NCBI GenBank assembly: GCA_937875605.1
Contig: CALLXZ010000375.1
Span: 1 to 5,800, forward strand
Length of the DNA stretch: 5,800 nucleotides
Reading direction: 5' to 3'
Origin: an uncultured Moheibacter sp.
GTDB taxonomy: Bacteria > Bacteroidota > Bacteroidia > Flavobacteriales > Weeksellaceae
Part shown: piece after piece, positions 2,913-5,800 of the stretch
How positions within the stretch are numbered: position 1 is the stretch's first letter
Layout: every line of letters starts with the position of its first letter
The notes under the pieces: generated by a model
What the model was told of the DNA's origin: nothing
The model's input: only the letters and a program-made list of their open reading frames with translations
The model's database searches: none
Program-made: the position numbers and the translations under genes

Positions 2913-3626
2913 ATGTTGAGAGAAATTAAAAAAATTAAAAATTTAAGCAAGTTAGGCGTTATGATGTTAGCAAGTTTTTCTATAACTTCTTGTTTAAATA
3001 ATGATGATGATAATGGGGTTGTAGTTCCTGAGAATGCAGGCTATATTTTGTTTACTAATGTTTCTCCCGGTTCTACGGGTTTGAGATTGTATGCAAATAA
3101 TGAAGTGTTTAATAATAACCCTTTGAATTATAACCAATTCTTTAATTATGCTCCCGTTGAAATCGGAAGCAAAACTTTAACAGTTCGTTCTGGCAATTCT
3201 TCTACTGATTTAGATACGATAAGTCTGAATGTGGAATTAAATAAATTATACAGTGTTTTTGCCGTAAATACGCCTGAAAACATTGAATTATTGGCGTATT
3301 CAGATAATCCAACTGCACCTTCCAGCCAGTTGAAAACGAAAATCCGTTTTATTCAGCTTTCACATAATACTCCTTCTGTAAAATTGGCAATTGAAGGAAT
3401 AGAAGGTGATTTGGGAACTTTTAATTTCAGAAATGCTTCTTCCTTTATGGAAATTGACCGAGTAAATAATAAAAAATTGTACTTGATAAATTCTGAGACC
3501 CAAGACACCATTTTTTCAAAAAATGTTTCGTTTAGCGGTGGTTCAGCTTATTCCGTTTTCAGTGAGGGAATTTTTGGTTCTGATGATGAAGACCTTGATT
3601 TGGACATTCAATATTTACAATACTAA
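2913..3626 (+). CDS. DUF4397-like surface lipoprotein with two similar halves
   Basis: A 237-residue putative lipoprotein. The N-terminus has a lysine-rich region (residues 3-13), a hydrophobic segment (14-24) and a lipobox ITSC with the lipidated Cys27, so signal peptidase II processing is expected. Mature residues 2-7 are LNNDDD. Acid-rich residues just after the cysteine act as a surface-export signal in Bacteroidota, so an outer-leaflet location is likely but inferred. The rest is beta-rich and resembles DUF4397 proteins. Two halves align: 44-130 opens with YILFTNVSP and 144-237 with IRFIQLSHNTP, and both carry DTI followed by YSVF (113-116 and 213-216). The C-terminus is acidic (SDDEDLDLD), then aromatic. 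No catalytic motif is seen and the function is unknown. The ATG is the first in frame after a TGA at 2880-2882. There is no Shine-Dalgarno site; the start follows an A-rich tract. Confidence 0.85.
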   Translation: MLREIKKIKNLSKLGVMMLASFSITSCLNNDDDNGVVVPENAGYILFTNVSPGSTGLRLYANNEVFNNNPLNYNQFFNYAPVEIGSKTLTVRSGNSSTDLDTISLNVELNKLYSVFAVNTPENIELLAYSDNPTAPSSQLKTKIRFIQLSHNTPSVKLAIEGIEGDLGTFNFRNASSFMEIDRVNNKKLYLINSETQDTIFSKNVSFSGGSAYSVFSEGIFGSDDEDLDLDIQYLQY

Positions 3627-3709: not shown

Positions 3710-4969
3710 TTAGTACTGAACATAATCTACATCCATTTGTTCGGCAGCCTTTTTATAATAACCTGAATCCAGTTTTTCACGAATGGAGTCAAAAGCATTC
3801 AACGTAAACTCAATGTCCTCATCTGTGTGAGCAGCCGTAGGAATGATTCGGAAAATGATCGTTCCTTTCGGAATTACCGGATAGACCACCACCGAAACAA
3901 AAACACCGTGATTTTCTCTAAGGTCTTTAGCCATAATCGTTGCTTCAATCGGACTTCCTTCTAAGATGATTGGTGTTACCGGAGTATTAGTCAAACCTAA
4001 ATTATAATTTCTTGCACGTAGACCAGCTTGGATTTTTTCAACATTTTCCCATAATTTATTTTTTAATTCGGGTCTTGTTTTCAATAATTCCAATCGTTTC
4101 AAACCACCAATGGTCATAGGCATACAAAGTGATTTTGCAAAGATTTGCGAACGTAAATTGTACTGTAAATAACGGATAACCGACTTGTCTCCGGCAAAAA
4201 ATCCACCAAAACCAGCCATTGATTTAGCAAATGTAGAAAAATAAACATCTATCTGATCTTGACAGCCTTGCTCCTCTCCTGCTCCTGCTCCTGTTTTACC
4301 CAAAGTTCCAAATCCATGTGCATCGTCCACTAAAAGACGAAAATTGAATTCTTTTTTCAAATCACAAATTTCTTTTAGCTTTCCTTGTTCCGCCATCATC
4401 CCGAAAACACCTTCCGTAATGACAAGAATCCCGCCACCGGTTTGTTCGGTAATTTTTGTTGCACGAGCTAAATTCTTTTTCAAACTGTCCATATCGTTAT
4501 GAATGAACGTAAATCGTTTCCCGAAATGTAAACGTACACCATCCACTATACAGGCATGACACTCTTGGTCATAAACGATTACATCATTTTTAGACACCAA
4601 AGCATCGATAGCCGAAACCATCCCGGGATAGCCAAAGTTTAACAAATAAGCAGATTCTTTTCCTACGAATTCAGCCAACTCACTCTCCAATTGTTGATGA
4701 TACGTCGTTTGTCCAGTCATAGCACGAGCTCCCATAGGCGCAGCCATTCCATATTTGGCAGCAGCATCGGCATCGGCTTTTCGTACTTCGGGATGGTTAG
4801 CTAATCCCAAATAATTATTTAAACTCCAAACCACTACATCTTTCCCTTTGAATTTCATGCGAGGTCCCATTTCTCCTTCCAATTCAGGGAAGATAAAATA
4901 TCCTTCTCCATAATCAGCAAATTGTCCCAAAGGACCGGGATTCTTTTTAATTCTTTCAAATATATCCAT
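3710..4969 (-). CDS. Alpha-oxoamine synthase family PLP enzyme; candidate cysteate C-acyltransferase (capnine synthesis) or serine palmitoyltransferase
   Basis: PLP enzyme that condenses an amino acid with an acyl thioester and releases CO2, the chemistry of AONS (BioF), KBL and serine palmitoyltransferase. The 419 residues are close to bacterial serine palmitoyltransferases and a little longer than BioF or KBL (about 385-400). Motifs in order: NNYLGL (51-56); a glycine-rich segment at 80-86 (GARAMTG); the PLP-stacking His138 in DQECHACIVDG; DDAHGFG (215-221) with Asp215 and His218; the Schiff-base Lys249 in STFAKS before GFGGFFAG; and Arg374 in FRIIPTAAHT, which holds the substrate carboxylate. 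No biotin or threonine-degradation gene is nearby. The upstream neighbour is a CBS/cysteine synthase-type enzyme, which favours cysteate as the amino acid and 3-ketocapnine as the product. That substrate is inferred; serine (sphingolipid synthesis) is the main alternative. The start at 4969 has an in-frame TAG 27 bases upstream. No convincing -7 box is seen before it. Confidence 0.93.
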   Translation of the reverse strand: MDIFERIKKNPGPLGQFADYGEGYFIFPELEGEMGPRMKFKGKDVVVWSLNNYLGLANHPEVRKADADAAAKYGMAAPMGARAMTGQTTYHQQLESELAEFVGKESAYLLNFGYPGMVSAIDALVSKNDVIVYDQECHACIVDGVRLHFGKRFTFIHNDMDSLKKNLARATKITEQTGGGILVITEGVFGMMAEQGKLKEICDLKKEFNFRLLVDDAHGFGTLGKTGAGAGEEQGCQDQIDVYFSTFAKSMAGFGGFFAGDKSVIRYLQYNLRSQIFAKSLCMPMTIGGLKRLELLKTRPELKNKLWENVEKIQAGLRARNYNLGLTNTPVTPIILEGSPIEATIMAKDLRENHGVFVSVVVYPVIPKGTIIFRIIPTAAHTDEDIEFTLNAFDSIREKLDSGYYKKAAEQMDVDYVQY

Positions 4970-5003
4970 GATCGTATTTTGTATTAAGTAAGTCTAACTA
5001 AGT

Positions 5004-5037
5004 AAAATGCTCCACAATTTAAAATTGGGAGCATTTT
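5004..5037 (-). terminator. Hairpin with T run between the two PLP-enzyme genes
   Basis: AAAATGCTCC (5004-5013) pairs perfectly with GGAGCATTTT (5028-5037). After one unpaired A at 5014, the inner bases CAA and TTG can extend the stem, leaving a small AT-rich loop. On the minus strand the stem ends in TTTT, so it is a plausible intrinsic terminator for the CBS-like gene, starting 29 bases after its stop. It ends 34 bases before the start of the oxoamine synthase gene, so it could instead give partial read-through within an operon or mark separate transcription. Confidence 0.75.
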
Positions 5038-5066
5038 GATTATTTCAAATTAATATAATTTTCATT

Positions 5067-5800
5067 TTATTTCACGTATTGGACAGTCGCATTGGACTCC
5101 AATCCATTCAAACGGCTATTTGTAAATCCTTGTTCTTCCATCCATTCATCACTAAATACTTTCGTGATATAACGGGAACCATGATCCGGAAAAATTAAAA
5201 CAACAAAATCGTCTTTCGAAAATTCACCTGCCAATTGTTTATAAGCCTGAACAACTGCTCCACTTGTATATCCGCTCATGATTCCTTCTTTCAAAGCAAT
5301 TTCACGTGTCGTATAAGCACTCTCCTCATCCGTAACTTTCACAAATTTATCGATGAGATCAAAATCGGTTGCTTCCGGAACTAAATTCTTTCCTAAACCT
5401 TCTATTCTGTACGGATAAATTTCATTTTTATCAACTTCTCCCGTTTCGTGGTATTTCTTCAGAATTGAACCATAGGCATCTACGCCTATGATTTTTATGG
5501 AGGGATTTTGTTCTTTCAGATATTTCGCCGAACCTGAAAGCGTTCCGCCAGTACCACAGCACGCAATCAGATGTGTGATCCTCCCTTGTGTCTGCTTCCA
5601 AATCTCTGGCCCGGTAGTTAAATAATGGGCTTCAATATTTTTTAAATTAAAATACTGATTGATGTAGATTGAATTGGGTGTTTCTTCCGCAATTCTTTTG
5701 GCAACTTCATAATAAGATTTAGGATCGTCAGCCGGTACATTTGCCGGACAAATAAAAACTTTGGCACCCAATGCTTTTAAATAAGCAATTTTTTCGCCTT
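5067..5800 (-). CDS. CBS/cysteine synthase-type PLP enzyme, 5' end cut by window edge; candidate cysteate synthase
   Basis: Fold-type II PLP enzyme of the beta-replacement group (cysteine synthase, cystathionine beta-synthase). The C-terminal 243 residues are visible and the frame stays open to base 5800. A TTG at 5771 is an ordinary internal leucine, since upstream codons continue the fold ([14 protein letters not shown]). Motifs: the PLP-phosphate loop GTGGTLSG (bases 5532-5555), [19 protein letters not shown], the SGYTSGA segment near the cofactor ring, and [18 protein letters not shown]. The last, with [12 protein letters not shown], resembles the catalytic core of cystathionine beta-synthase more than CysK. 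No Bateman (CBS) regulatory domains follow; the protein ends about 25 residues after the core. The PLP lysine and substrate-binding asparagine loop lie beyond the edge. Because the next gene is an alpha-oxoamine synthase, a cysteate synthase role (for example O-phosphoserine plus sulfite) is proposed by inference. Cystathionine or cysteine synthesis remain possible. Confidence 0.92.

Follow-up and report, generated by a model that had tools for sequence, protein, structure and literature searches.

Two adjacent genes of a Moheibacter-like bacterium, capA and capB, are predicted to encode enzymes that make cysteate and condense it with fatty-acyl-ACP to 3-ketocapnine, which would likely be the first steps of capnine-type sulfonolipid synthesis. 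We assign this reading a probability of about 0.93, the bases shown for it being family membership, a diagnostic active-site lysine, clade placement and a conserved neighbourhood. CapA, CapB and the reductase CapC are all published, and the pair is of an ordinary known kind, i.e., one more example in a Moheibacter-like bacterium. Given that the sulfonolipids of Bacteroidota have been linked to gliding, to inflammation and to the development of choanoflagellates (PMC11211663), the two genes make Moheibacter-like bacteria predicted producers of such lipids.

The window, i.e., the whole stretch of DNA analysed, is an entire contig of 5,800 bases (G000:C375) from a Moheibacter-like Weeksellaceae MAG of 574 contigs and 2.45 Mb, which is 82% complete. 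capB, the gene of a predicted cysteate fatty-acyl transferase (CFAT/SulA), occupies positions 3710-4969 of the minus strand and is complete, with an ATG start and 419 aa. capA, the gene of a predicted cysteate synthase, lies at 5067-5798 of the minus strand and is open at its 5' end. Because the window is a complete contig, the contig boundary truncates capA: the fragment holds the C-terminal 243 aa, i.e., the C-terminal two thirds, and the N-terminal third, including the PLP lysine, lies beyond that boundary. A TTG at position 5771 is internal to capA, inside the gene. The capA stop and the capB start codon are separated by a gap of 97 bases. The original prediction had placed two PLP enzymes head to tail on the minus strand, and the list of open reading frames agrees with it, as do the Pfam matches, which are Aminotran_1_2 for the capB product (110 bits, cut-off 19.7) and PALP for the capA product (161 bits, cut-off 35).

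The other window genes encode a truncated phosphoglucomutase/phosphomannomutase-family protein, a small Transgly_assoc protein, a dihydrolipoyl dehydrogenase and a DUF4397 protein. The same neighbours are present in unchanged order in loci L021-L023. Among the remaining 77 named loci, with flanks of at most 6 kb and some shorter, only L082 shares a window neighbour, namely the dehydrogenase. The DUF4397 gene (2913-3626, plus strand) is convergent with capB, and the N-terminus of its product looks lipoprotein-like by eye. This gene adjoins capB in L021-L023 too, at 48-61% identity, whereas none of the 77 further named loci showed it.

The oxoamine synthase is CapB, a predicted cysteate fatty-acyl transferase. 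When searched against PDB sequences, it obtains its best match with 28eh (named 'Cysteate-C-fatty acyltransferase'), at 621 bits, and its second with 7u7h, the A. finegoldii SulA, at 585 bits. The best serine palmitoyltransferase (SPT) in this search, 3a2b, scores 240 bits. Identity is 95% to the CapB of Moheibacter lacus and 94% to that of M. sediminis. A maximum likelihood tree was built from 56 rows, which we picked from the loci at hand: the window, three PDB chains, 30 CapB-like sequences from fetched loci, ten SPTs above the NCBIfam cut-off, ten other oxoamine synthases, and E. coli KBL and BioF, whose branches are long. The window CapB falls inside a 33-row CapB/SulA clade with a support of 100/99, together with 7u7h and 28eh and apart from SPT, KBL and BioF.

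The 56-row alignment also locates the active-site lysines. Lys249 (codon 4223..4225, minus strand) matches Lys251 of SulA, which is its PLP-binding residue (PMC9304779), and Lys279 (codon 4133..4135, minus strand) matches SulA Lys281, a position held by alanine in serine palmitoyltransferases. The Lys281 column is lysine in 33 of the 33 CapB-clade rows, alanine in 21 of the 21 SPT-side rows, asparagine in E. coli KBL and threonine in BioF. Lys281 of SulA has been proposed as a mark that may tell cysteate from serine enzymes (PMC9304779). Ten active-site positions were compared, and the window CapB equals SulA at all of them, including the Lys281 equivalent; the PLP-site residues Asn53, His140, Asp217, His220, Thr248, Lys251 and Arg376 of SulA are all identical.

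The best named NCBIfam matches of CapB would point elsewhere, i.e., to a serine palmitoyltransferase or another oxoamine synthase, making sphingoid bases or 2-amino-3-ketobutyrate: they are glycine C-acetyltransferase with 287 bits and SPT with 282 bits. Both scores are far below cut-off (640 for SPT), and these names come out best because NCBIfam has no CapB model. Against them stand 28eh and 7u7h, with more than twice the SPT score, the 100/99 clade and Lys279, and we consider such an identity extremely improbable. For SPT, KBL and BioF by name, the bit scores, the tree and the Lys281 column rule the assignment out. The claim that the oxoamine synthase belongs with the cysteate acyltransferases was thus upheld, as the PDB scores and the tree group it with SulA/CFAT and not with BioF, KBL or SPT.

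In comparison with the known CapB/CFAT/SulA enzymes (A. finegoldii alfi_1224, i.e., 7u7h, and 28eh), among which F. johnsoniae Fjoh_2419 is counted by citation, the window CapB aligns over its full length without large gaps. Sequence divergence is the sole difference, and the activity here is predicted. The Sphingobacterium SPT (3a2b) has the family, the PLP residues and the reaction type in common with the window CapB, but differs in its score of only 240 bits, in the alanine at the Lys281 position and in its placement in a sister clade.

The upstream enzyme is the C-terminal part of CapA, a predicted cysteate synthase. On NCBIfam model NF053679 (CysteaSynCapA, cysteate synthase) it obtains 405 bits, covering positions 104-329 of 329, versus 243 bits on cystathionine beta-synthase (CBS) and 187 bits on the best cysteine synthase model. 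The NF053679 cut-off of 600 bits is a naming threshold and no biochemical feature, and is out of a fragment's reach. The full-length M. lacus orthologue scores 578 bits, which is 22 under this cut-off, and for the window's family the best full-length matches score 534-595 bits, and are therefore left unnamed by the model. The nearest solved chain, PDB 9k2p, scores 333 bits; its deposition names it no more closely than as a PLP-dependent protein.

In a 36-row CapA tree, from which the nearest assayed CapA was left out and in which L166 and L176 were flagged as long branches, the fragment clusters with CapA rows, among them those of M. lacus and M. sediminis, and stands away from CysK, CysM and the CBS-like rows. 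It belongs to an 11-row set within the CapA rows with a support of 97/96; the 23-row CapA clade has a support of 94/91, beneath the starred level. The genome's own CBS homologue (L011, on contig C347, likewise cut at a contig end) sits in the CBS-like clade and comprises a PALP and two CBS stretches, against PALP only in the full-length M. lacus CapA. The CapA model gives this homologue 329.5 bits and the CBS model 327.8. Since these scores are nearly equal, the CapA model alone separates CapA from the CBS homologue weakly, and the distinction is owed chiefly to the tree and the domain content.

An ordinary cystathionine beta-synthase or cysteine synthase, standing beside a cysteate acyltransferase by chance, would share the fold family, and the 22 bits by which the full-length orthologue falls below the CapA cut-off are in its favor, as is the 53-58% identity of the CBS-like rows to M. 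lacus CapA. However, the fragment's model scores (405 versus 243 and 187 bits), its position in the CapA clade with the own two-CBS-domain homologue in the CBS-like clade, and the adjacency to capB maintained in the family all argue for CapA, making this alternative very unlikely. A CBS or CysK identity was rejected on model scores and tree. The original prediction had described the upstream enzyme as CBS-like, within a cysteate-making role; model scores, PDB search and tree group it with CapA, and not with CBS or CysK.

The window capA shares its best model and its clade with the CapA references (Capnocytophaga ochracea C7M8J5 by citation, NF053679 and 9k2p), and its full-length orthologue is likewise without CBS domains. 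The differences are the absent N-terminal third and the 22 bits by which the full-length orthologue stays below the naming cut-off. In orthologue L022, an STKDR motif, which by its resemblance to CysK-type enzymes would hold the PLP lysine, stands at the expected place. The missing 5' part of capA was sought in the own genome with the CapA model (E 1e-3), which returned two loci only, the window and C347, neither covering the N-terminal part. The contigs of capA (window end, 5800) and of the own CBS homologue break at near-equal coding positions, 104 and 105 of the model, and their ends align with an 8-base offset, with 97 of 150 bases identical. The matching break points are perhaps an assembly effect of paralogous sequence.

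By analogy with assayed relatives, CapA would replace the phosphate of O-phosphoserine with sulfite in a PLP-dependent beta-replacement, yielding cysteate. CapB would then form a PLP-cysteate aldimine and condense it with acyl-ACP to 3-ketocapnine, with loss of CO2. A short-chain reductase encoded elsewhere in the genome, followed by an N-acyltransferase, would finish the lipid. The CapA-type reaction, from phosphoserine and sulfite to cysteate, is reported in PMC10191378 and PMC11211663, and the CapB-type reaction, from cysteate and acyl-ACP to 3-ketocapnine, CO2 and ACP, in PMC9304779. The proposed pairing of a cysteate synthase with an acyl-condensing enzyme is supported by family scores, trees and conserved neighbourhood, with activity predicted. 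The proposal that cysteate arises from activated serine and sulfite is supported as well and can be made more precise, the activated serine being O-phosphoserine according to these reports.

As originally remarked, the window carries no 3-ketocapnine reductase of the short-chain dehydrogenase/reductase (SDR) type: Pfam matched no SDR among the six window proteins scanned. CapC, a 3-dehydrocapnine reductase, was reported from Ornithobacterium rhinotracheale (PMC11211663). In relatives, an SDR gene lies between capA and capB in G022, G027 and G032, a Cupin_8 gene and an SDR gene lie between them in G033, and an SDR gene is beside capB in G030. These linked SDRs (L174:4935-5777, L175:5503-6375, L176:5413-6270, L166:8265-9131 and L186:5464-6318) are, by position, likely of the CapC type, i.e., 3-ketocapnine reductases. 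Only these five of 40 relatives have an SDR of the linked type at 44% identity or more. They match CapC by position only, and none of that type was found in the window's genus; the best match in the own genome, which is 82% complete, reaches 94.5 bits, below the level of the linked type. Two Cupin_8 proteins, L166:7402-8265 and L245:2314-3156, are 49% identical to each other; the former is within a capA-cupin-SDR-capB row and the latter is beside an SDR and a VOC gene. They are possible tailoring oxygenases of sulfonolipids.

The own genome has nine SDR-model matches, of which the seven strong ones (L012-L018) were scanned against NCBIfam. Only the SDR on contig C158 (L016:1252-2046, 265 aa) has 3-ketodihydrosphingosine reductase (KdsR) as its best model, with 228 bits against a cut-off of 400, and it is therefore a candidate unlinked reductase for the pathway. 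In C. gleum and A. finegoldii, too, the reductases found to be active are reported as unlinked to cfat and cys (PMC11211663).

With regard to gene order, capA immediately precedes capB on the same strand, with its end at most about 170 bases away, in 78 of the best 80 of 172 named loci, which are not independent because they are mostly from Chryseobacterium and its kin. The two loci without capA beside capB, L068 and L095, are both from Bergeyella zoohelcum, and two counted among the 78 (L024 and L077) hold only a piece of capA where the locus ends. Relatives with CapB were compared as well, a pair on the same strand with a gap of at most 5 kb counting as adjacent. The own genome has an adjacent pair, as do 4 of 5 genomes in the genus, 15 of 18 in the family and 3 of 11 in the order. 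G003, the remaining genome of the genus, was scored non-adjacent, yet has a piece of capA beside capB at a contig end. One genome of this set, G017 (80% complete), has a CapA of 554 bits and no CapB match. Another, G013, has a second, diverged CapB (L156:6252-7487) in addition to a linked pair; it is 61% identical to the window's, retains the Lys281 equivalent and has no neighbouring capA.

The search was also extended to 296 genomes sampled from the phylum, with CapB counted at E of at most 1e-100 and CapA searched at E 1e-140 and counted from 500 bits. CapB is present in 107 genomes besides the own one, 36 of which have a CapA of at least 500 bits. Every genome of the sample with a CapA at that level also has CapB. 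Of the 36 genomes with both, 18 have the two genes adjacent: all 6 from the window's family, 11 of the 12 from other genera of family f3, the single one from elsewhere, and none of the 17 from genus g22. Linkage of capA and capB is patchy, although common within the window's family and close to it, and in the phylum sample CapB has a wider distribution than CapA as scored here. Conservation of the adjacency, proposed as a check on the pathway reading, thus holds for the window's family and for nearly all sampled genomes of the other f3 genera, but not for genus g22. The CapA and CapB references of C. ochracea in PMC12927429 have consecutive accessions (ACU93374.1 and ACU93375.1), from which we infer that the adjacency was probably visible before.

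Folding of the 97-base gap gives a hairpin with a U-run after it (5004..5037, minus strand), with z = -3.67 and none of 200 shuffles as stable, which looks like a terminator or attenuator between capA and capB. The gaps of L021, L022, L023, L053 and L090 also fold to a hairpin and U-run, with z from -2.56 to -4.78, so that all six loci folded, the window included, have one. The stem sequences are unrelated between Chryseobacterium and Cloacibacterium. A consensus terminator scan did not list the hairpin at 5004-5037. Because of this terminator- or attenuator-like element, capA and capB are not taken as one transcript.

Hence, the genes may be as named and still form two transcription units that merely stay neighbours, with a terminator between them. 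The recurrence of the hairpin with differing stems suggests as much, as does the separation of capA and capB in genus g22. On the other hand, the short same-strand gap is retained across the family, an attenuator would yield the same hairpin, the capB ORF of L166 overlaps the SDR gene upstream, and the three genes of L176 are only 17-40 bases apart. We regard separate units as a real possibility, at rather less than even odds.

The wider comparison, including the question of the cysteate source, is more useful than the pair itself. Of the 108 genomes with CapB in the phylum sample, 71 have neither a CapA of at least 500 bits nor TIGR03844, a count which, like all counts of absent CapA given here, is an upper bound because the CapA beside capB in G032 scores 474, under the 500-bit limit. 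The archaeal-type cysteate synthase (TIGR03844) was rejected as the cysteate source of genomes without CapA, since it occurs in 5 of the 296 genomes, all of family f43 and none with CapB.

A two-domain protein of VOC/glyoxalase fold, of about 350 aa, is found in 40 of the 296 genomes, all 40 of them among the 108 with CapB. The hypergeometric probability of this co-occurrence is 1e-20, and 7e-9 without the dominant family f37, relatedness being ignored in both. Only 2 of the 40 carriers have a CapA of at least 500 bits (38 do not), and 33 CapB genomes have neither the VOC protein nor such a CapA. Examples of the protein include L189:7061-8110, L188:3562-4704, L248:5181-6224, L249:7115-8152, L153:5707-6765 and L155:9794-10849. 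Its gene is the last of an SDR-CapB-VOC row in G101 and G195, is beside or near capB in G037 and G025, and is more than 100 kb from capB in other carriers, e.g., G102 and G228.

Alignment of 21 sequences of the VOC protein gives 38 invariant columns. The PDB sequence search returned no credible relatives (best E 0.87), and three examples scanned against NCBIfam had no match over cut-off. None was found in the window's own genome. A literature search for VOC/glyoxalase together with sulfonolipid, judged by titles and abstract openings, yielded no such link. The presence of CapB with the Lys281 equivalent across several families lacking CapA as scored points to the VOC protein as a testable new pathway gene. 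These results suggest, tentatively and with a probability that falls just short of even, that capA-capB is one of several sulfonolipid gene architectures and that the VOC protein is an undescribed sulfonolipid enzyme, serving either tailoring or an alternative cysteate supply where CapA is unused.

A further arrangement is seen in three genomes of other families, in which a fatty-acyl-AMP ligase, an acyl carrier domain and a CapB domain are fused into proteins of 1108-1126 aa (L153:2226-5573, L154:7574-10897 and L155:5472-8849). A VOC gene is near such fusion genes in G291, G256 and G216. The CapB domains of the fusions are 44-48% identical to the window CapB, and all three keep the Lys281 equivalent.
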